Positions 22,060 through 37,130 of a DNA stretch of 38,196 nt are shown one piece after another. The position numbers were made by a program, and so were the translations under genes. The notes below the pieces were generated by a model, which saw only the letters and a list, made by a program, of their open reading frames with translations, was not told where the DNA came from and did not search any database. The DNA lies in contig CALLZN010000028.1 in the NCBI GenBank assembly GCA_937858895.1, forward strand, positions 1 to 38,196. Reading direction: 5' to 3'. The DNA is from an uncultured bacterium (GTDB taxonomy: Bacteria > Planctomycetota > UBA1135 > GCA-002748355). How positions within the stretch are numbered: the stretch's first letter is position 1; each line of letters starts with the position of its first letter.

Positions 22060-23943
22060 CTAGCGCCCGACGAGGGCATGCGACTTTTGGACGACCTCAC
22101 GCTGCCGGACGAAGGACAAGAGCTCCTTCACCGCCGGCGCCGCGTACTTCCCACCGTAAAAACTGCGCACTTTGCGCTTCATGAGCAGGGCCATCGACAG
22201 CCACCTCGGGTCCGAGGCGGGCGCGAAGCCGATGAAGCTCGCGTTCGATGTCTGCGTGATCCTGTTGACGGTCGTGCCGGTCTTGCCGGCCAACCAAGAG
22301 TCCGTCTCGGCGTCACTGAGATCCCGGGCCGTGCCACGCGGATCGGTCACGACGCGCACGAGCGTTTCGCGCACCCACTCCACGGTTCGATCCGAGAAGA
22401 GCCGCCGCCCCCTGCCCGCCTTCTCACCCTGGCTCTTTGCATCCACGATGAGACGCAAGCGGAAGTCATGGCCGGTGATCAAGCTCGCGAAGGCGCGCGC
22501 GAAACTCAGCGGGTAGATCTCGAGCTGATAGCCGAAGCTCAGCGACGGCCCGGTGTAGAGCTCGTAGTCGGGCAAGTACTCGAAGTTCCTCGCCGTTGGC
22601 ACGCGACCGCGCCGCGCTTCGCCGTTCTTGGCGCGCGGCAACGGGAGCCCGAGGTCCGGGGCCTCGGCCAACCGAAAGAGCTCGAGCATCTCACGGTGAA
22701 AGGCCGCCCCACCGAGCATGCCGACCTTGACCGCGCCGATGTTGCTCGACTGGATCAGGATGTCTTCGACTCGGCACTCACCGACGTAGTGATCGTCGGT
22801 GATGACGCGGCGGCCGCGAGCGTGGCGTGGCTGCATGCGCCAGGTCTTCTCTCCGTTATCGCCGCAGACGAAGCTCTGTCCGGGTCGAACGAGGCCGCGC
22901 TCCATCGCGAGCCCGAGGATCAGGGGCTTGATGACCGAACCGGGCTCGACGCGCGCCCAATGCGTCATCGGCCAGTCGGAATCGCCTTCGACTCGAAACT
23001 CAGGGTCAAAGGTCGGCGCGCCGGCCAAGGCAAGAACGTCACCCGAGTGCAAGTCGATCAGGAAGAGGAGCCCCCACTCCGCCTCGGCCGCGCGCACGGC
23101 GCGTTCGATCGCCTCGAAGGCGACCTCTTGCACACGCGCATCGAGCGTCGTGACGACGCGTCCGACCTCGAACTCGTCGGCGAAGGGCGTGACCTCGAGG
23201 TCGCGCAGGTAGGTCTTACCGCGTGCGTTGCGCGACTCGCGCACGAGGCGCGGCTTGCCAGCGTCGAGGTCGTCGAGGGCTTCGAGGCCGATCGCTCGGC
23301 TCGCGCCGTCGGCTTCGCCGACGATGGTGCCGACGACGTGGGCGGCGGCCCGACCGAGCGGATAGACCCGGTTCCAGACCGACTCGAAGCGAAAGCGGAA
23401 ACGGCAAGCGTCGAAGCGTTCGCGGCCGAGGGCCTCGAGGGCACGCAGGACTTCGGTCGATCCGACATCGCGCGCGAAGACGCGCTTCCAATAGAACTGC
23501 CAAGGACCGCGCGGCGTCCCGCGCGCGTCGGCGCGCTGCCAGAGGTCCCGTCGACGCTCTTCGCTCGGCAGCTCGAGCGCGATGCGCACTTCTTCACGCT
23601 GGGCCGTGCTCACGTGTTGGCCGAGCTCCAAGCTCGCGACGATGCGCGCGGCGAGCTCGCGCGGAAGGTCCGCGTTGCCGTAGCACTCGATCTCGATGTC
23701 GTAGGCGAGCGACGACGAAGCGAGCACGCGACCAGCGCGGTCGACGAGCATGCCGCGCGGCGCATCATGGCGCACGACGCGCTGGCCGTGCTGACGGCCT
23801 GGCGGCGGCGCGCGCCGGCCGTCGGCGTGGGCGACGAAAACACGCCACGTCGCGATCACGAGCATGCAGGCGACCGCAACGACGATCCAGGTGAAGGCCG
23901 GCCGTGCGATCTCGTCGACGTGAGAAGGTGAAGGACGCGCCAT
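22060..23943 (-). CDS. ftsI: Septal penicillin-binding protein (class B)
   Basis: A 627-residue monofunctional transpeptidase with one N-terminal membrane helix (about 17-35). Residues of about 60-250 are the non-catalytic dimerisation region. The transpeptidase domain carries all three signatures: SxxK as 'EPGSVIKPLI' (Ser336, Lys339), SxN as 'QSSNIGAVKV' (Ser399-Asn401) and KTG as 'LAGKTGTTVN' (Lys554-Gly556). It crosslinks peptidoglycan at the septum with FtsW; context (ftsL-like upstream, mur genes downstream) supports ftsI rather than mrdA. There is no C-terminal PASTA domain. It starts nine bases after the ftsL-like gene. Confidence 0.94.
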   Translation of the reverse strand: MARPSPSHVDEIARPAFTWIVVAVACMLVIATWRVFVAHADGRRAPPPGRQHGQRVVRHDAPRGMLVDRAGRVLASSSLAYDIEIECYGNADLPRELAARIVASLELGQHVSTAQREEVRIALELPSEERRRDLWQRADARGTPRGPWQFYWKRVFARDVGSTEVLRALEALGRERFDACRFRFRFESVWNRVYPLGRAAAHVVGTIVGEADGASRAIGLEALDDLDAGKPRLVRESRNARGKTYLRDLEVTPFADEFEVGRVVTTLDARVQEVAFEAIERAVRAAEAEWGLLFLIDLHSGDVLALAGAPTFDPEFRVEGDSDWPMTHWARVEPGSVIKPLILGLAMERGLVRPGQSFVCGDNGEKTWRMQPRHARGRRVITDDHYVGECRVEDILIQSSNIGAVKVGMLGGAAFHREMLELFRLAEAPDLGLPLPRAKNGEARRGRVPTARNFEYLPDYELYTGPSLSFGYQLEIYPLSFARAFASLITGHDFRLRLIVDAKSQGEKAGRGRRLFSDRTVEWVRETLVRVVTDPRGTARDLSDAETDSWLAGKTGTTVNRITQTSNASFIGFAPASDPRWLSMALLMKRKVRSFYGGKYAAPAVKELLSFVRQREVVQKSHALVGR

Positions 23944-23952
23944 CGAGAGAAC

Positions 23953-24189
23953 TCAGTCTCGTGACTTGCTGCGCTCGCCAGCCGGCGACGACGCTTGGAG
24001 CACTTCGGTTCGCTGCAACCAAGCGAGCCTGCGCTCGCAGCGCGCACGCTCGGCCGCGAGGTAGCTCGCGTCGCTCTGCAACGCGCTCAAGCGCGCTCGC
24101 AGCTGCACGGTCCGAATCCGAAGGGCGACCACCAGGAGGCAGGCGGCAAGACAGAAGAAGAGCGCGACGAACGCGCCTCCCCACCTCAC
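23953..24189 (-). CDS. ftsL: FtsL-like division protein
   Basis: A 78-residue bitopic protein: one membrane helix (about 5-23, 'AFVALFFCLAACLLVVALRI') followed by a heptad-like helix ('VQLRARLSALQSDASYLAAE') and a short polar tail. Size, topology and position between rsmH and ftsI are those of FtsL, which scaffolds FtsW-FtsI; sequence identity alone is too low to prove it. The start is GTG in a GTGA overlap with the rsmH stop. Confidence 0.8.
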   Translation of the reverse strand: MRWGGAFVALFFCLAACLLVVALRIRTVQLRARLSALQSDASYLAAERARCERRLAWLQRTEVLQASSPAGERSKSRD

Positions 24190-25136
24190 CGCGCTGCCCC
24201 CTGGCGACCCACCTGGGGATCGGAATCGACCGTCTTCACGGCCACTCGGAGCTTGGCGCTCCGACTGCGAGGATTGGCATGCAGCTCCTCGACACCCGCC
24301 GTAACGGGCTTCTTGACGAGGGGCTGCATGCGTTCTCGCAAGAACGTCTTCACCAGACGGTCCTCGAGGCTATGGAACGAGATCACGACCAGGCGACCCC
24401 CGACTCGGAGCGCGCGGCATGCCGCCGCGAGCCCCGCTTCGAGGATCTCCAGCTCTCTATTGGTCGCGATTCGTAAAGCCTGGAAGACGCGCGTCGCCGG
24501 GTGAATACGTCCCGTAGACGCCGAGGGTGGCACCGCTCGAACCACCAACTCGGCCAGCTCCTCACCAGTCGTGGGGAGCATCTGACGTTGCCGCTCTTCG
24601 CAGATCGCGCGCGCGATCCGTCTCCAGAAGCGCTCTTCCCCGTACTCACGGAACCAACGACCCAGTTCTTGCTCCGGTGTGATCCGGAGCAAGTCGTAGG
24701 CAGTCGGTCCAGTGGTCTGGTCGTAGCGCATATCGAGAGAGGTCGAAGAACGGAAGGACAACCCCCTCCCGGGGTCATCCATCTGATGCGAGCCGAAGCC
24801 TAGGTCTGCGAAAACCCGGTCGACGGAGTCGATGCCGAGTTCACGCAGAACCTCGTCCAAGTCGGCGTAGCTCGCATGTCGAAGCTCCACTCTCGGGGCG
24901 ACCCCCGTGAGGTTGGCGCCGGCGCATCGGAGGGCGGAACGATCGCGGTCGAGACCGATCAACGTTCCACCCGAACCGATGCGTTCGGCGATGCCCCTCG
25001 CGTGGCCACCCATGCCGATCGTCGCGTCCACGACGACCAGCCCCTCCACGAGAGCGAGGGCTTCGATGACTTCCTTTGAAAGAACAGATACGTGGGGCGG
25101 TAACCCCGAGTGCTCGGGCGGTGGCGTCTCCGTCAC
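24186..25136 (-). CDS. rsmH: 16S rRNA (cytosine1402-N4)-methyltransferase
   Basis: A 316-residue RsmH (MraW). Seen: 'HVSVLSKEVIEAL' near the start, SAM motif 'VVVDATIGMGGHARGIAERI', 'IGLDRDRSAL', 'FADLGFGSHQMDDPGRGLSF', 'RIHPATRVFQALRIATNREL' and 'VISFHSLEDRLVKTFLRER'. These are diagnostic of the family. The start is GTG at 25136, which overlaps (GTGA) the stop of a 48-codon frame that itself begins on the mraZ stop; the rsmH frame is open further upstream, but that part has no family features and lies across mraZ. Confidence 0.95.
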   Translation of the reverse strand: MTETPPPEHSGLPPHVSVLSKEVIEALALVEGLVVVDATIGMGGHARGIAERIGSGGTLIGLDRDRSALRCAGANLTGVAPRVELRHASYADLDEVLRELGIDSVDRVFADLGFGSHQMDDPGRGLSFRSSTSLDMRYDQTTGPTAYDLLRITPEQELGRWFREYGEERFWRRIARAICEERQRQMLPTTGEELAELVVRAVPPSASTGRIHPATRVFQALRIATNRELEILEAGLAAACRALRVGGRLVVISFHSLEDRLVKTFLRERMQPLVKKPVTAGVEELHANPRSRSAKLRVAVKTVDSDPQVGRQGAAR

Positions 25137-25279
25137 ACCGCGGCCCTGACTGCAGCTCGTGTTCGCGAGCCGGGCCAGGAAGGGGAAGAGGGCCCCGAGC
25201 CCTCTCCCCCCCGGAGAAGATCGATGTCGATGTCGACATGGCCGTCGACCTTGCGTTCGATGCAGCGCGTGGTCGACAT
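25133..25279 (-). CDS. Possible 48-residue coupling ORF between mraZ and rsmH
   Basis: This short frame starts with ATG sharing one base with the mraZ stop (TGATG) and ends with TGA sharing four bases with the rsmH start (GTGA). The predicted peptide begins MSTTRCIERKVDGHVDIDID and has a Gly/Ser/Pro-rich C-terminal half; no family is recognised. The exact threading between two genes, in an operon where most junctions overlap, suggests it is translated, perhaps only to carry ribosomes to rsmH. It contains the strong hairpin at 25182-25210. It may equally be chance in high-GC DNA. Confidence 0.4.
   Translation of the reverse strand: MSTTRCIERKVDGHVDIDIDLLRGGEGSGPSSPSWPGSRTRAAVRAAV
25182..25210 (-). 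promoter_or_regulatory. Strong hairpin in the mraZ-rsmH interval
   Basis: On the minus-strand RNA a 12-bp stem (one G-U pair) with a 5-base loop can form: the inner part is AGAGGGC / GCCCTCT and the outer part four G-C pairs. No U-run follows, so it is more likely an attenuating or mRNA-stabilising structure than a classical terminator. It lies 46 bases before the rsmH GTG. Confidence 0.45.
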
Positions 25280-25746
25280 CACATCGGGCCCTCTTCTCCG
25301 CTGAGGATGGCTTCCAGATCCTCCTGCCAATTCGCTGTCTTGGCCTCGTAGGCCTTGTGCACTTCGCTCGCCCAGAGCTCGATCCGCCGCAGCACGCCGA
25401 CACAGGTCAGGCTGTCGCCGATCTTCGCGAACTCGCGCAGGCGATCCGGGATCGCGATGCGGCCTTGGGCATCGAGCTTGATCCGCTCGGAGAGGCCGAA
25501 GAACCAGCGCTGCACCGCGCGCGTCTTGGCGTCGACCTTCTCCGAGACTTTGAGAATGCGCTGTTGGCGCCGCCACTCGGCCTCGTCGAGGAGCCAGAGG
25601 CAGCCGTCGGCGCCAGGCGTGATCCAGAACGAGTTGAGCGTCCGCGTGTAGCCCTCGCCGTCCTCGCGCTCCTCGAGGAATTGCTTCGGAAAGAAGGCGC
25701 GCCCCTTGGGGTCGACTTTCACCTCTTTGGTTCCGAAGGCTTCCAT
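25279..25746 (-). CDS. mraZ: Transcriptional regulator MraZ
   Basis: A 155-residue MraZ, a DNA-binding protein with two SpoVT/AbrB-like (MraZ) domains that controls dcw operons. The duplicated core is visible as 'VKVDPKGRAFFPKQF' (about 10-24) and 'IKLDAQGRIAIPDRLREFA' (about 88-106). It is the first gene of the operon, downstream of a promoter candidate at 25841-25868 and a pair of 16-bp direct repeats at 25785-25822 that could be its own binding region. Its stop codon overlaps the start of a 48-codon frame. Confidence 0.93.
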   Translation of the reverse strand: MEAFGTKEVKVDPKGRAFFPKQFLEEREDGEGYTRTLNSFWITPGADGCLWLLDEAEWRRQQRILKVSEKVDAKTRAVQRWFFGLSERIKLDAQGRIAIPDRLREFAKIGDSLTCVGVLRRIELWASEVHKAYEAKTANWQEDLEAILSGEEGPM

Positions 25747-29802: not shown

Positions 29803-31065
29803 TCAGCGCGCCGTGCCCGCCCTCGGCCGGGCGAGTTCAACCCCGAGCCAGTAACGGTCGCGGGTCTTGCGACCGCCGTAAACGTGTGTTAGCTCGCTCG
29901 CGCGACTCACGATGCGCAGCGCTGTGAAGTGACCCGCCACACGATCGAACTTGAAATCCCCGGTGAGCTCCATCGTGAGCTCGAAGGGCATGCGCGCTTC
30001 CTTGCGAGCTCCGACCTCCTCGCCGGTGGTCGGACGCAGCTCGAGCCGCCCTTCGATCCGCCCACGCACGGCGGCATGCGTGACCTCGTCGACGAGCATG
30101 CGCAGCTCGCCGTGTATCGATTCGTCTCGAAGCCGGGGCAGGACGGCGCCGCGCGGGTAACTCGCGTGCGCAATGCGAAGGAAGGCTGCGCGGGGCCACT
30201 TGCGCGCACGCTCGCCCACCGAGCAGTCGGGCAGGAGCTGCGCAAGCTCAGCGTCTTTCCAAGCAATCAGGTCTTGGCCGCAAAGCTCGGTGTACATGAC
30301 ACGATCGTTGCGCACGCTGACGCGCAGGGCGGGTCCGTCGCTAGCGAAGCGAGGCTGCGGCACGACGCTCGCCGCGACCTCAGCGACTGCGGCCGCGCTG
30401 CCGTCACAGAGCGCTTCGAAGTCGTCGGGCAGCGCGCCGTGCACCGCGCGCAGCGCGCTAGACGCTCGCTCGAAGAAGCGCTGCACCATCGCCTCCGGCC
30501 GCGCGCGCTGCTCGACCAAGAACTGACTGTCGGCGCGGCCCTGCGTGCCGAGGCTCAAGAAGACATCGAGCACCTCGCCGTCCGGCGTGAAGAAAGCCTC
30601 CCGCTCGCCGCCGAAGAAGCCAGGCCGACGCGGGTACGGCCCGGCCATCGCCTCGGCGTGCAGCCGTTCGAGCAGCGCGACGTCGCGCGGATCGCGAATC
30701 AGGTCCTTCGTGCTGAGTTCGGGCAGGCGCGCACAGACGAAATACTTGCGCAAGAGGGCGACGACGCGCGCATCAGAGAGCGACCCGGCTCTCACTGCCA
30801 CTCCGCCAGCTCAACAATAACCGTTGTCGAGGATGCCGTCGTAACCGAAGAAGAAGACAGGCCGGCGTTCCCGTTTGGCAATCGCGAGAGCTTCGACCAG
30901 GGAGTCGCCGAACGGGATGAGCCGCCAACGCTCTTCGTCCGCACGCGGACGCGCGCGCGAGAGCGCAGCGCTGACATCACAACGCTCTTCGCATTTGGGG
31001 GTCGCCTGTGCGGTCACGACGGTGGCGACCACGACGAAAAGGAGCAAAGCCCGCAGCGCGGTCAT
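29803..31065 (-). CDS. Secreted thioredoxin-like protein, candidate selenoprotein (in-frame UGA)
   Basis: Read through one TGA this is a 420-residue exported protein. Residues 1-21 are a signal peptide ('LLLFVVVATVVTAQA'). Next comes a thioredoxin-fold-like entry 'ALAIAKRERRPVFFFGYDGI' leading to 'LDNGYC', then TGA (30813-30811) as codon 85, then in the same frame 'AGGVAVRAGSLSDARVVALL' and 'RKYFVCARLPE', as in secreted thioredoxin-like proteins where a redox Cys pair occupies this spot. The frame stays open, with coding character, for 335 more codons; residues of about 215-420 form a domain I do not recognise. If UGA is selenocysteine, the redox centre is Cys84-Sec85. A bacterial-SECIS-like hairpin lies downstream (30776-30793). 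The alternatives are a nonsense mutation of a Cys-Cys ancestor or a sequencing error, in which case two fragments exist (31065-30811 and, from GTG, 30801-29803). Confidence 0.6.
30776..30813 (-). promoter_or_regulatory. In-frame UGA with bacterial-SECIS-like hairpin
   Basis: After the UGA (30813-30811), 17 bases later, a perfect 6-bp stem GAGAGC / GCTCTC encloses the loop CGGGTC. The loop starts 23 bases after UGA and has G at its second position; described bacterial SECIS elements have an apical loop about 16-37 bases after UGA with a G in its first two positions. The fit is by eye, without folding software. Confidence 0.45.
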
Positions 31066-31116
31066 ACGCCATCCCTCAACGCGCCGAGCGGCCGCACGTC
31101 GCTGCCACGGACCTGA

Positions 31117-31241: not shown

Positions 31242-33038
31242 TCAGAAGTCTTCCCAATCCTCGTCGTCACCGGAGCGCGCCGGCTTGCCGACGCTCCGCA
31301 GAGCAGGCTGTGCAGTTGCTCGCTGCCTCGGTCGCGCTGGCGTCCGGGGCTCGCCGGTCAGGGCTGCAGCATCGCCGACCTTGAAGAACCCGACGAGCTC
31401 GACCAGGGCCTGCGCCTCCTGCTCCATCGCAGCGCTGGCCTCGGCAGCCTGCTGGACGACCGAAGCGTTCTGCTGAACGGTGCTGTCCATCTCAGTCACG
31501 GCCTTATTGACCATCTCGATGCCCGTTGCCTGCTCCTCGCTCGCGGAAGCAATGTCGGTGATGATCTCGTTGACGGTCTTGACCGACTCGACGATCTGCT
31601 TGAGCGTCTCACCGGACCGGTTGACGAGGCTCGTACCGTCGCTCACCCGTTCGACACTGTCGCTGATCAGGCGCTTGATCTCCTTGGCAGCCTCGGCCGA
31701 GCGCTGTGCCAGATTGCGCACTTCGGTCGCGACGACCGCAAATCCACGGCCCTGCTCGCCAGCGCGCGCGGCCTCGACGGCAGCGTTCAATGCCAACAAG
31801 TTGGTTTGGAACGCGATCTCATCGATGACGCCGATGATGTCCGAGATCCGACGACTGCTCGCGTTGATCTCGCCCATGGCGGTCACGGCGTTGTTCATGA
31901 CACTTCCACCCTGCTCAGCGAGCTCGCGTGCTTGCGACGCGAGCTGACGCGCCTGCGCGGCGTTGTCGGCGTTCTGCCGCACAGTGCTCGTCAACTCCTC
32001 GACGGCTGCTGCGGTCTCCTCGAGCGCGGATGCTTGCGCCTGACTGCGACGAGACAGGTCCTCGTTGCCGACGGCGATCTCCCCAGCTCCTCGCGTGATC
32101 TGAGCAGCAGCGCCGAGGATACTCCCGACCATGGAGCCGAGCTGGTCGACTGTGCCGTTGATCGCTGACTTCAGGACTTCGCCGTCCCCATCGAAGTCGC
32201 CGCTCACGTGCTGCGTCAAGTCACCTGCAGCGAGCGCCCCGGCAACCCGAGCGGACTCCGAGATCGCGACCTTCCGCGCCGTCACATCGGTGGCGTACTT
32301 GACGACTTTGAACGGCTTGCCGTTCATATCGAAGATCGGGTTGTACGCGGCTTGGATCCAGATCTCCTTGCCGCCCTTGCCGATACGCTTGTAATCACCC
32401 GCGTCAAAGATGCCACGGCCCAGTCGAAGCCAGAAGTCACGATACTCTGCACTCTGCGCATAGCTTGCTTCAACGAACATGCTGTGGTGCTGGCCACGGA
32501 TCTCATCGATCGTGTAGCCGACCGCGTGAAGGAAGTTCTGGTTCGCCGTCCGAATCGTGCCATCGAGATCGAACTCGATGACAGCTTGCGACTTGTCGAT
32601 CGCCCGAATTTGACCTTCGAAGTCAGCACTCTCGCGCTTCGTGGCCGTGATGTCCGTGGCGAACTTGACGACGCCGACAACCTTGCCGCGGCTATCGAAG
32701 ATCGGGTTGTAGGAGGCCTGAATCCAGACCTCGCGGCCGTTCCGGCCATAACGCTGGAACTCACCGGCTTGGAACTCACCGCGCGCGAGGTTCGACCAGA
32801 AATCGGCGTAAGCAGCGCTGCGCGCATACTCAGCGTCGACGAACATGCGATGGTGCTTGCCGACAATGTCTTCCGGCTTGTAGTCGAGCGCGGACAAGAA
32901 GTTGTCGTTAGCACGCACAATCGTACCGTCGATATCGAACTCGATGATCGCCTGCACGCGATCAATCGCAGCAACCATGGACCGAATGCGCTGGTCCCCG
33001 GCCTTGTTGACCGGTTTCTTCTCTGTAGCCTTCACCAC
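31242..33038 (-). CDS. Soluble methyl-accepting chemotaxis protein with two PAS domains
   Basis: A 598-residue cytoplasmic chemoreceptor without membrane helices. PAS1 (about 20-130) and PAS2 (about 142-252) are close copies of each other (both with 'ANxNFLxAxxY', 'FxRYGxxGxExWIQAxYNPIFD' patterns and a final 'VKxATDxTAxK'), so they arose by duplication. A HAMP-like linker (about 255-300) leads into the signalling coiled coil, whose tip reads '[20 protein letters not shown]' (about 415-435). The C-terminus 'DEDWEDF' resembles the NWETF pentapeptide that tethers CheR and CheB. The start is GTG at 33038, seven bases after AGAGGAGG; a second GTG follows directly. The PAS ligand (redox or energy state, as in Aer) is inference. 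Confidence 0.92.
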
Positions 33039-33119
33039 TTCAACCTCCTCTTTCAGTAAGAACTGACTGCCGTTCCTATGTTGCGAAGTACTCGTCCTTC
33101 GTACCGTCGCACCTGATGT

Positions 33120-33458
33120 TCATGAATAGCTCTGCCTAGAGCTCTCCCCGACTGACCCAAGGAGCAACCTGGAGTCTGATCCAATATCATCAAACGCCGC
33201 AGACACGGCACGTGACAACAACCATTCACTCTGAACGTCCCTTCTGCCGAGATGGGCGTGCATCGCCATCAGAATCTGAATTCCTGCGGCATCGACGCGA
33301 CCGATCTCGGATGCGTCAATAACAAGCTTCTTGTGGCCTCGATTGATTATGACGTCAAAGTCCGCATAGACGCGAGTCGCACATTCGATCGTCATCTCAG
33401 ACGGCAAGTCGAAATGTTGGATATTCAATGTTGGTCCCTGTTCAAAACAACTCGACAT
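33120..33458 (-). CDS. STAS-domain protein
   Basis: A 112-residue single-domain STAS protein, the fold of anti-anti-sigma factors. The core is 'KKLVIDASEIGRVDAAGIQI'; the position of the phosphorylated Ser in SpoIIAA-type proteins is Ala here ('DAAG'), so phosphorylation-controlled partner switching by the classical route is unlikely. ATG at 33458 with GGAGG six bases upstream; it overlaps the end of the preceding MCP-like gene by 17 bases. STAS proteins occur in many che operons, where their role is poorly defined. Confidence 0.85.
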   Translation of the reverse strand: MSSCFEQGPTLNIQHFDLPSEMTIECATRVYADFDVIINRGHKKLVIDASEIGRVDAAGIQILMAMHAHLGRRDVQSEWLLSRAVSAAFDDIGSDSRLLLGSVGESSRQSYS

Positions 33459-34644
33459 CACCAGCCTCCATGTCCACCTGCTGCACGGTGACACGCGATG
33501 GAGCTTCTTGATCTCGACCCGCGCTCACCAAGCGATCGCGCAGCTCAACAAGGCGATCTTCCAACAACCCGTGCGCCGCGTCTTCGGTAACGGCGATCTC
33601 ACTCACCACAGCATCGGTCAACGACTGCATCGACCGCTCCGTCGACTCGATGTCGTGCACGATGCTGTCGAGACGCTGGCGTGCAAGGTCTTCGAACTGC
33701 AGGGCGGTGACGGCTCGGGCCACATCTGAATTGACACGCTCCTGCGCAGCCATGAGTCGCCGAACTTCGTCTTCCATGCTCTCGTTGTCGGCGCGGAGGC
33801 GCACGAGGACATCACCAACGTGCGCAACGGAATCGGTCGCCGTGGCAAGATCACATGCGCTGAGCCGTGTCACGGTCGAGCGCGTGTCTTGCATCGAAGC
33901 GATCATCTCGCGTGTTCGAATCGCCAACTCGGAGTCGAAGCTCTGTGCCTTCTTCGACAACTCGCGCACACTCGCTGCGACCTGGGCAAATGCTCGTCCG
34001 TGCTCGCCCGCTCGAGCCGCCTCGATAGCAGCGTTGAGAGCCAAGACGACAGTCTCGCGTCGAATCTCGTCTGCCTGCTCGAGCAACCCGAGCATGGCGT
34101 CGCCATTGCTCGCCATCGTGTCGAAGCGAGGCAACAGGACGGAGCACTGACTCGCCATCTCGTGCAACTTCGCGATGCTGTGTTCGAGCAAGCGCTTCAG
34201 CTCTTTGGCGACATTGACGAGACTCGACGGCTCCTCGTCCGAAACCTGCATCTCCACACGCTCGACGAGTTGCTCGATGAAGCGCGACTCCGTCGTGACA
34301 TGCTCGTGCAAGCTCGCGAAAGAAGCCTGTAGCTTTCCAGCGGCGTCATCCAGAATCGCCTGCACTTGACCAACGCCGCTCTTGCTTGCGCTCTGCCGGC
34401 CAGCAACGATCGCGGCAGCCGATGTGGCGAGCGAACGAAGCGCGTCCTTCACGGTGGCGCTCGGGTCATGGCCGTCAGCAGCATCGGCGGAATCATGCTC
34501 TCTGTCGCGCGCCCGATGCGACAAGGACAATCCCACAATTGCGAAGGCGGCTGCCGTGACGAGGCGGCTGTTGGCGATGACGGCGAGAACGCCGCACGTC
34601 AGCAACACAGAGAGCACGAATCGCGTCGTCTTGAGCGCGCTCAT
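33442..34644 (-). CDS. Membrane MCP-like protein with CheZ-like DxxxQ motif
   Basis: A 400-residue protein: two close membrane helices at the N-terminus (about 8-25 and 28-42) with almost no periplasmic loop, a long coiled coil, and an MCP hairpin tip 'VLALNAAIEAARAGEHGRAF' (about 200-219). After the hairpin comes 'AVTALQFEDLARQRLDSIVH' with Asp319 and Gln323 in DxxxQ spacing, the pattern of the CheZ phosphatase site (QDLTGQ). The C-terminus 'VTVQQVDMEAGDVELF' has no pentapeptide tether. It starts with ATG in an ATGA overlap with cheB. Without a sensor domain, it may act as an array scaffold or signal sink; phosphatase activity is inference. Confidence 0.8.
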   Translation of the reverse strand: MSALKTTRFVLSVLLTCGVLAVIANSRLVTAAAFAIVGLSLSHRARDREHDSADAADGHDPSATVKDALRSLATSAAAIVAGRQSASKSGVGQVQAILDDAAGKLQASFASLHEHVTTESRFIEQLVERVEMQVSDEEPSSLVNVAKELKRLLEHSIAKLHEMASQCSVLLPRFDTMASNGDAMLGLLEQADEIRRETVVLALNAAIEAARAGEHGRAFAQVAASVRELSKKAQSFDSELAIRTREMIASMQDTRSTVTRLSACDLATATDSVAHVGDVLVRLRADNESMEDEVRRLMAAQERVNSDVARAVTALQFEDLARQRLDSIVHDIESTERSMQSLTDAVVSEIAVTEDAAHGLLEDRLVELRDRLVSAGRDQEAPSRVTVQQVDMEAGDVELF

Positions 34645-35684
34645 GCTCCGACTCCGACGCGGCGCCGCGGAGTCCACTCAATCATCGCATCGGCGATCCG
34701 TTCGAGTGGCAGGACACGTTCAGCGGCGCCCAAGCGCACCGCTTCGCCAGGCATACCCCAAACAACAGAGCTGGCTTCGTCTTGCGCAATCGTGCCAGCA
34801 CCGGCCTCACGCATGCGCAAGAGCCCGGCCGCACCATCCCGCCCCATGCCGGTAAGGAGGACCCCCTGCGCACGCCACGCAAAGGTCTCTGCAAGCGACT
34901 CGAACAGGATGTCGACCGAGGGGCGAAAGCCCTCACGCAACGGGTCACTCGACAAGCGCAGCCTCGGCATCCCATCGCGCAACGCGACCTTCATGTGCGC
35001 GCCAGGCGGTGCGATGTAGACATTGCCGACATCGAGTGCGTCTCCTTCAGCGGCAAGTCGCACCCGGTTCGCGCAGGCAGCATCGAGCCTGGCAGCGAAG
35101 GCTTCGTGGAACGCTGCGTGGAGGTGCTGAACGATGAGCGTCGGCGGACATGGGCTCGGCAGAGCCTCCAGGACTTGTCGAATGGCCTCCGTCCCCCCCG
35201 TGCTCGCACCAATGGCAAGCACGTGCATCATAGAGGCTAACGGCGCGGGAGCGCGTGGGATCGCCCCACGATCCCGCGTGACCCGCAGCCGAGCTTGGTG
35301 AGCAAGCTTGACACTTGCTCGAATCTCATCGGCGATATCATCGAGCAGCTCTCCTTCAGCCGTGGATGGCTTGGCCACGCAGGCCACCGCACCCAGCTCC
35401 AAGGCCTCGAGCGACTCGGCTGCCCCACGTGCCGTCAGACTCGAGACCATGACGACGGGCGTCGGGCGTAGCCGCATGAGATTCTGCAGGAACGTCAACC
35501 CATTCATGCGTGGCATCTCGATGTCCAGAGTGAGGACATCAGGATTCAGAGACTTGACAAGACTACGCGCCTCGTACGGATCTGCAGCCGTCCCAACGAC
35601 ATCGATCTCGGGCTCCTGATCGAGTACCTGCTTGAGGACCGCCCGCAAGAACGGCGAGTCGTCTACGATGAGTACACGTATCAC
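34641..35684 (-). CDS. cheB: Chemotaxis response regulator protein-glutamate methylesterase
   Basis: A 347-residue CheB. The receiver domain starts 'VIRVLIVDDSPFLRAVLKQ' and has the phospho-acceptor Asp54 in 'LTLDIEMPRMNG', the Ser of 'VVMVSSLT' and the Lys in 'CVAKPS'. The esterase domain has the triad Ser161 ('AIGASTGGTEAI'), His187 ('IVQHLHAAF') and Asp283 ('LTGMGRDGAAGL'). It removes receptor methyl groups and can deamidate glutamines. I choose GTG 35684, eight bases after AGGG and directly before the first receiver strand; the frame is open to 35735. Confidence 0.95.
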   Translation of the reverse strand: MIRVLIVDDSPFLRAVLKQVLDQEPEIDVVGTAADPYEARSLVKSLNPDVLTLDIEMPRMNGLTFLQNLMRLRPTPVVMVSSLTARGAAESLEALELGAVACVAKPSTAEGELLDDIADEIRASVKLAHQARLRVTRDRGAIPRAPAPLASMMHVLAIGASTGGTEAIRQVLEALPSPCPPTLIVQHLHAAFHEAFAARLDAACANRVRLAAEGDALDVGNVYIAPPGAHMKVALRDGMPRLRLSSDPLREGFRPSVDILFESLAETFAWRAQGVLLTGMGRDGAAGLLRMREAGAGTIAQDEASSVVWGMPGEAVRLGAAERVLPLERIADAMIEWTPRRRVGVGA

Positions 35685-35700
35685 TGCTAAACCCTGAACA

Positions 35701-36312
35701 TCAGAAGAGTTCGACATCCCCGCACGGCACAGCATCGGAGATCCGGGCGCCGTAGCTGACCTCGGTCGCAGCGAGCTTGGCCGCTCCCTTGATCTTCTTG
35801 ACTCGAACGCGACCTGTCACAGGCCAGTAATGGACAACGCGTGCTTGCTCTCCTCCAACGTCCTTCGACTCAACAGACAGCTGCTCTAGATCCAAGTAGC
35901 GCGTGACGAAGTCGACGTTCTTGGCTCCAACATCGCTCAGACCTTCTATGATCCGAGCACCGCCGAAGATCTTGATCTCGAGCCGGTTCTTTGCTCCGCC
36001 ACGCTTGAGCACTTCATTGATCAGCGTCTCCATTGCATAGCTGCCGTAGCGCGCAGCATCCGACCAGCTTCCTGGAGCACTGCGCGAAACGTTCGGAAGC
36101 AAGAAATGATTCATCCCTCCCACTCCGACTTTAACATCGCGCACGCACGCCGCAACACACGAACCAAGGATCGTGATGATGCGCTCGCCACGCTTCGTCA
36201 CGTAAAAGTCTCCAGGTCGCAACTCGGCGACGACTTCGTCATCGCGTCGATCCATGTATCGATGAATCGCTTCAAAGCCAGGGAAACACGATGGGAGGTC
36301 GGACATACTCAT
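35701..36312 (-). CDS. cheD: Chemoreceptor glutamine deamidase CheD
   Basis: A 203-residue CheD that converts receptor glutamines to glutamates. The catalytic Cys52 lies in 'TILGSCVAACVRD' and His69 in 'GGMNHFLLP', 17 residues later as in characterised CheD. Also seen: 'RYGSYAMETLINEVLKRGG' and 'LEIKIFGGARII'. ATG at 36312, five bases after GGAGG and overlapping the cheR stop (ATGA). It is longer than many CheD proteins because of a tail ('VHYWPVTGRVRVKKI' and beyond) and ends 'DVELF', the same five residues as the end of the MCP-like protein two genes later. Confidence 0.95.
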   Translation of the reverse strand: MSMSDLPSCFPGFEAIHRYMDRRDDEVVAELRPGDFYVTKRGERIITILGSCVAACVRDVKVGVGGMNHFLLPNVSRSAPGSWSDAARYGSYAMETLINEVLKRGGAKNRLEIKIFGGARIIEGLSDVGAKNVDFVTRYLDLEQLSVESKDVGGEQARVVHYWPVTGRVRVKKIKGAAKLAATEVSYGARISDAVPCGDVELF

Positions 36313-37130
36313 CGCGACCTCCGACGAAACATCGTCTTGCCGCACGAGGAAAGTTCACTATGCACGCCACACAGGGACTCCGAGTGGCCGAGGAAGAGCA
36401 CGCCTCCCGGGCTTAGAAGCGATACGAAACGATCGACGAGTCGGGCTTGCAAAGCACGATCGAAGTAGATCAACACATTTCGACAGAAGATCACGTCGAA
36501 TGGGCCGCGTACCGGCCATGGATCCAAGAGGTTCAGTCTCCGGAATCGAATCATGCTGCGCATGGCGCTGCCCGCGCGAACGACCTTCGCGTCTGGGCTC
36601 ACCTCGAAGCGAGCTAGTTGCGACTTTGACATTGTTGCTACGTCGCCGGCCGCATACTCACCGCGCTCGGCTTTGGCGAGCACGTTGGAGTCCACGTCCG
36701 TAGCCAAGACCTTGACGTCCCAACCGTCGGCTGCGGGACTGTCGAGAATCGTGACGGCAATCGAGTATGGCTCTTGCCCAGTCGAGCATGCGGCCGACCA
36801 GATCCGAAGCCTTCGTTGCCGAGCTTCCTCCTTGGCCGCAATGATGCCTCTCAACTCTTCGAAGTGATGCTGCTCCCGAAAGAACGACGTCAAGTTTGTC
36901 GTTATCGCATTAGTGAACTCGATTAGCTCTGAGGTGTCGGGGCTCCGGACGATATCCAGATACTCGCTGATCGACGAGAGCCCCAAGGCGCGCGCTCGCT
37001 TCGACAGCCGTCCACGAACCATGGCTCGCTTCTCGTCATTGAGGTTGATTCCGACGTTCTTTCGTGCAAAGTCACGCACGAACTCGAAGTCGGCAGTCGA
37101 AAGCGTCATTCCCGCTGTCGTGAGAGCCAT
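36309..37130 (-). CDS. cheR: Chemotaxis protein methyltransferase CheR
   Basis: A 273-residue CheR that methylates receptor glutamates with SAM. Seen: N-terminal helical domain with 'TNLTSFFREQHHFEEL', SAM motif 'RIWSAACSTGQEPYSIAVTI', 'VLATDVDSNVLAKAE', 'FDVIFCRNVLIYFDRALQAR' and 'GVLFLGHSESL'. It follows cheW by 13 bases and overlaps cheD. Confidence 0.96.
   Translation of the reverse strand: MALTTAGMTLSTADFEFVRDFARKNVGINLNDEKRAMVRGRLSKRARALGLSSISEYLDIVRSPDTSELIEFTNAITTNLTSFFREQHHFEELRGIIAAKEEARQRRLRIWSAACSTGQEPYSIAVTILDSPAADGWDVKVLATDVDSNVLAKAERGEYAAGDVATMSKSQLARFEVSPDAKVVRAGSAMRSMIRFRRLNLLDPWPVRGPFDVIFCRNVLIYFDRALQARLVDRFVSLLSPGGVLFLGHSESLCGVHSELSSCGKTMFRRRSR

Follow-up and report, generated by a model that had tools for sequence, protein, structure and literature searches.

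A predicted exported thioredoxin-like selenoprotein with a vicinal Cys-Sec pair represents a candidate selenoprotein family of the Planctomycetota

The stretch of DNA analysed here (the window, 38,196 nucleotides from an uncultured member of the Planctomycetota) holds a 420-codon gene whose single internal UGA is, in our judgement, almost certainly a site of selenocysteine (Sec) insertion. Comparative evidence settles this prediction: the Sec machinery of the genome, conservation of the UGA, constraint on an RNA stem downstream of it, and the residues that replace it in genomes lacking selA. By the alignments described below, the gene belongs to a large selenoprotein family of the Planctomycetota with C-U or C-x-U motifs.

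Translation of the minus strand with TGA read as U bears out the frame proposed by an earlier, sequence-only reading: it opens at the ATG at 31065 and has one internal TGA, codon 85, preceded by TGT, in the motif GYCUAGG (Table 1). Under standard ORF calling the gene falls into two pieces: the N-terminal one has 84 aa, and the other is a 332-aa ORF that opens at GTG 30801.

Table 1 Features of the predicted selenoprotein gene in the window.
Feature	Position	Strand	Basis
Predicted selenoprotein gene, 420-residue CDS with one internal UGA	29803..31065	-	Translation and orthologue alignment
Shine-Dalgarno-like GAGGGA, 6 nt ahead of the ATG (putative)	31072..31077	-	Read from the sequence
Predicted signal peptide, about residues 1-20 (MTALRALLLFVVVATVVTAQ)	31006..31065	-	Translation, judged by eye
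Thioredoxin-like domain (predicted), about residues 43-170, DsbH/AGR/Thioredoxin_7 type	30556..30939	-	AlphaFold2, 7tkv/3ira, sub-threshold orthologue profiles
TGT, Cys84, putative partner in the vicinal Cys-Sec pair	30814..30816	-	Sequence; Cys here in all group-A homologues
In-frame TGA, predicted selenocysteine 85	30811..30813	-	Same-column TGA in homologues and Sec machinery in the genome
Candidate bacterial SECIS hairpin, stem GAGAGC/GCUCUC, loop CGGGUC	30776..30793	-	Sequence, folding, pairing in 10/10 group-A sequences
AGA codon of invariant Arg92, within the 5' stem	30790..30792	-	AGR in 10/10 at this site
Beta-rich C-terminal domain (predicted), about residues 245-412, no known family	29830..30333	-	AlphaFold2; profile comparison with the GCTU family
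Terminator TGA	29805-29803	-	Sequence

A class-level search of 154 genomes found 28 places in 23 genomes, counting the window gene, nearly all of them with exactly one inner TGA; in every member covering the site it lies at query position 85, give or take a few residues of alignment slack. Three orthologues are near full length, L023 (50%), L024 (40%) and L025 (37%), the last of which begins at a contig end just past the UGA codon. Scanning the genome contig collection with the single sequence gave zero relatives; scanning it with a four-sequence alignment gave four loci, all in Planctomycetota MAGs, which comprise the three orthologues again (L050 is L023, L051 is L024 and L052 is L025) and one additional locus, L049. 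All four align along the window gene, and the window gene and all three orthologues that reach the codon (L049, L050 and L051) have TGA there. When the window gene is compared with these three, pN is lower than pS both upstream and downstream of the UGA, and both sides evidently are coding. A search of plasmids for relatives returned a chance match only (E 0.6).

Across the Planctomycetota, about 60-62 distinct homologous loci carry a UGA in the same column. Elsewhere the column holds Ser, Asp, Pro and, once, Cys (L091). The sequence-only reading had expected either UGA or Cys here: the UGA is indeed conserved, whereas Cys homologues are almost absent and their place is mostly taken by Ser, Asp and Pro.

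That reading also made its claim depend on the presence of selA, selB, selC and selD, and all four are found in the window's genome (5.77 Mb, 449 contigs, 87.6% complete). The selB gene scores 359 bits, above the cut-off; tRNA-Sec (selC) scores 71.6 bits and is called by ARAGORN as tRNA-SeC with anticodon tca; selD scores 357 bits and has an in-frame TGA of its own; and selA, at 470 bits, adjoins selD on contig C165. The Sec trait and the UGA go together in other genomes as well. We found selA in 47 of the roughly 49 UGA-bearing genomes tested, one of these matches (G320) being truncated where its contig ends; the two genomes with no selA match, G053 and G065, are only 67% and 64% complete. 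Conversely, the selA-less genomes of family f17 (G318, G246, G428 and G162) have Ser, Ser, Pro and Cys at the Sec column and never TGA, and we read this as loss of the UGA from the family in that lineage. Given that selA also occurs in genomes with no detected family member, the Sec trait is broader than this selenoprotein family.

The hairpin behind the UGA lies where it had been proposed, with 17 nt from the UGA to the stem and 23 nt to the loop. The published bSECIS model calls for a loop of 3-9 nt, a stem of 4-16 bp and a G within the first two loop positions, with a spacing of 16-37 nt and an MFE of at most -7.5 (quoted in PMC13188914); the window hairpin, at -8.1 kcal/mol, fits every one of these constraints. 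The geometry of the earlier proposal therefore stands, but its weight does not: in isolation the hairpin is weak evidence for Sec, because an equally good one follows 60 of the 825 TGA triplets in the window (about 7%; the DNA is GC-rich) and because the segment folds no better than its shuffles (z +0.46 and +0.84).

Conservation does rise above chance, judging from the homologues: it extends to the codon, to the hairpin and to the hairpin's synonymous sites. We defined group A as the ten sequences with the motif CU....RAGxLS, which are closest to the window gene. The six-pair stem is 100% paired at an identical distance from the UGA in all ten, and this register ranks first among 493 geometries scanned. 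The loop-closing pair is A-U or G-C in seven of them, leaving a GGUC loop; in the other three, the window gene among them, it is unpaired and the loop has six bases. All ten group-A sequences use AGA or AGG for the Arg in the 5' stem, compared with 8/225 of the Arg codons at other sites in these genes (nominal binomial P 3e-15, which is overstated since the sequences are related). This rare synonymous codon for Arg92 is, by the alignment, retained for the sake of the RNA. In the GCTU group, named for its C-x-U motif, a hairpin at or below -7.5 kcal/mol follows the UGA in 30 of 46 sequences, and the SECIS loop sits about 2 nt nearer the UGA than in the CU group. In a fixed register 65% of GCTU-group pairs form, with neighbouring registers about equal; we make no claim of covariation in this group, where pair counts are ambiguous between registers.

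An AlphaFold2 model built from five sequences (mean pLDDT 77.8, pTM 0.76) gives its best PDB fold matches to the Thioredox_DsbH proteins 7tkv (E 1.3e-4) and 3ira (E 2.5e-4), with AGR2 and AGR3 ranking lower. In the model, the N-terminal domain has a thioredoxin fold of DsbH/AGR type, with the Cys-Sec pair in a poorly modelled loop (residues 77-91 around U85, pLDDT < 50). Orthologues give sub-threshold matches to PF13899 and PF03190; the window protein itself stays below the curated Thioredox_DsbH and Thioredoxin_7 cut-offs, with no Pfam hit even at E 1, and a canonical CxxC is absent. The predicted fold and the weak orthologue matches together support the thioredoxin-like assignment of the sequence-only reading. 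Residues 245-412 have no confident Pfam or PDB match.

These features suggest a mechanism in which SelB and tRNA-Sec would decode UGA 30813-30811 as selenocysteine, directed by the hairpin at 30793-30776 inside the coding sequence. The product would probably be exported through its predicted N-terminal signal peptide and would consist of a DsbH/AGR-type thioredoxin domain, with Cys84-Sec85 as a vicinal redox centre, and behind it a beta-rich domain whose fold is unrecognised. The selenolate may attack an oxidised substrate, with Cys84 resolving the product. Export, the redox chemistry of the Cys-Sec pair and the nature of the substrate are inferred here. The most likely role of the protein is that of a selenol/thiol oxidoreductase or peroxidase outside the cytoplasm, with Cys84 resolving Sec85; given the fold, the adjacent Cys and the precedent of other thioredoxin-like selenoproteins, a redox function seems to us fairly probable.

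Among the neighbouring genes scanned, we found no conserved neighbour common to the orthologue loci. The window gene has chemotaxis genes upstream and an FG-GAP protein downstream, and the orthologues are flanked by other genes. The upstream chemotaxis cluster (31242-37130, minus strand) encodes two MCP-type proteins, CheB, CheD and CheR. Elsewhere in the window, 22060-25403 (minus strand) encodes a MraW methylase and a penicillin-binding protein, members of the cell-wall and division cluster, parts of which are missing in many Planctomycetota.

At E <= 0.001 a wider-family profile detects members in 143 of the 392 Planctomycetota genomes searched; the weakest of these matches may be other thioredoxin-like proteins. 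Most UGA members have a Cys one or two residues ahead of the Sec. For the tree built from 63 sequences, an ancestral UGA and several separate losses fit best; the non-UGA members are few and sit on scattered branches, and the full-length members in it have Sec or Ser, Asp or Pro, with no full-length Cys form. On balance we lean towards the view that exported selenoproteins of this type occur throughout the Planctomycetota, often with several copies in one genome, with a Cys-Sec or Cys-x-Sec redox centre, a new C-terminal domain and an ancestral Sec that gave way to Ser, Asp or Pro and not to Cys.

The window's own genome holds two further paralogues: a GCTU-type one (L097, G000:C230:4351-5601), with its UGA in NGHPLGCTUNNGV, and a third (L021:874-1866, minus strand, G000:C283) that has the motif FCU (U94), is Thioredoxin_7-like and is without the typical C-terminal domain. 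A second architecture occurs in L026, L027, L037, L040, L042 and L047, where the CU...RAGxLS domain and SECIS lie at the C-terminal end, behind an N-terminal region of 280-370 residues, for which Pfam gave no match in L037 and L047, the two members tested. In L038:1-1830 (minus strand), by eye, a GCTU family domain is followed by an M28-peptidase-like region in one open frame.

We weighed three other accounts of the gene. That ORF calling yields exactly the two fragments given above is what one would expect if a nonsense mutation or a base error had split an ordinary thioredoxin-like gene. Yet three orthologues, each from an independent assembly, and some 60 distinct homologous loci have a TGA at this very codon, and both halves of the gene are conserved as protein; the orthologues in practice refute this account, and we hold it to be highly improbable. 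Nor do we give much credence to a genome-wide reassignment of UGA to a different amino acid (code 4 or 25), or to general readthrough, with no part for selenium. The frame would be open whatever residue TGA encodes, but the gene itself stops at TGA where L049 and L050 stop at TAG, the genome has the full Sec machinery, and in the selA-less lineage the family does without UGA; the chance that this account is right is very slight.

Predicted Sec insertion is thus the reading we retain, and within it the protein might still be something other than an oxidoreductase. Sec could serve in metal or selenium binding, and the members with Ser, Asp or Pro would then show that what the family conserves is something other than redox chemistry. 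The lack of Cys among full-length non-UGA members, the missing CxxC and the poor modelling of the active-site loop favour such a role. Against it stand the rarity and scatter of the non-UGA members over the tree, the Cys close ahead of Sec in most UGA members, and a fold that is that of DsbH/AGR proteins. We consider a non-redox role unlikely, though deserving of weight beside the redox function preferred here.

Most selenoproteins have been found through their Cys homologues. If the family is as proposed, selenoprotein searches built on Cys/Sec pairs would fail to see it. Exported redox proteins found across a whole phylum have probably been overlooked because standard annotation cuts such genes in two. 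The family suggests that Planctomycetota make wide use of selenium as a catalyst outside the cytoplasm, and it raises a testable question, namely why Cys hardly ever replaces Sec in it. The authors of deep-Sep note that selenoprotein families without Cys homologues may be filtered out (PMC12013277); that searches may miss such families would explain why this one has been overlooked so far.

Sec genes and some selenoproteins have been recorded in planctomycetes before (PMC4807772). For the window protein, no Pfam or NCBIfam model matches at E <= 1, PHROGs and PDB sequence searches gave no usable match, and nothing fitting appears among the 119 families in a 2026 inventory of prokaryotic selenoproteins (PMC13188914). 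Within the coverage of Pfam, NCBIfam, PDB and this inventory, the searches suggest that the exported thioredoxin-like family is undescribed, and within the same bounds the novelty that the sequence-only reading had ascribed to the 420-residue architecture holds.

The VPGUxxT family (NF041382/NF041383, OS_HP5) is likewise thioredoxin-like and selenium-containing, and matches the orthologue L024 weakly (E 2.5e-4, 20.8 bits). This score is, however, far under the curated cut-off of 275 bits, the Sec motif and the C-terminal part differ from those of the window protein, and the VPGUxxT models give no match to the window protein at E 1, the motif itself being absent. A true VPGUxxT member is encoded elsewhere in the same genome (L101, 373 bits). 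This protein (NF041383, G000:C229:8345-9205) has a second in-frame UGA, in FSQAUFWISEAEFG, at a site resembling the GCFW active site of MsrA, and is possibly a two-Sec protein. KCU-star, SaoC, SaoL, HgcA and MbdU share with the window protein a Cys immediately before Sec but belong to other families (NF033934, NF040734, NF040728, NF040863 and NF045648; PMC13188914). Thioredox_DsbH (PF03190) and Thioredoxin_7 (PF13899) proteins, such as 7tkv and 3ira, resemble it in the predicted N-terminal fold and in the sub-threshold orthologue matches; in place of their CxxC, the window protein has a Cys-Sec pair in an enlarged loop, and its C-terminal domain differs. The GCTU-type paralogues of Planctomycetota (for example L097 and L048) have GCTU where the window gene has CU, and share with it both the alignment column of the UGA and the two-domain architecture (344 aligned columns, hhalign 99.7%, E 6.6e-27).
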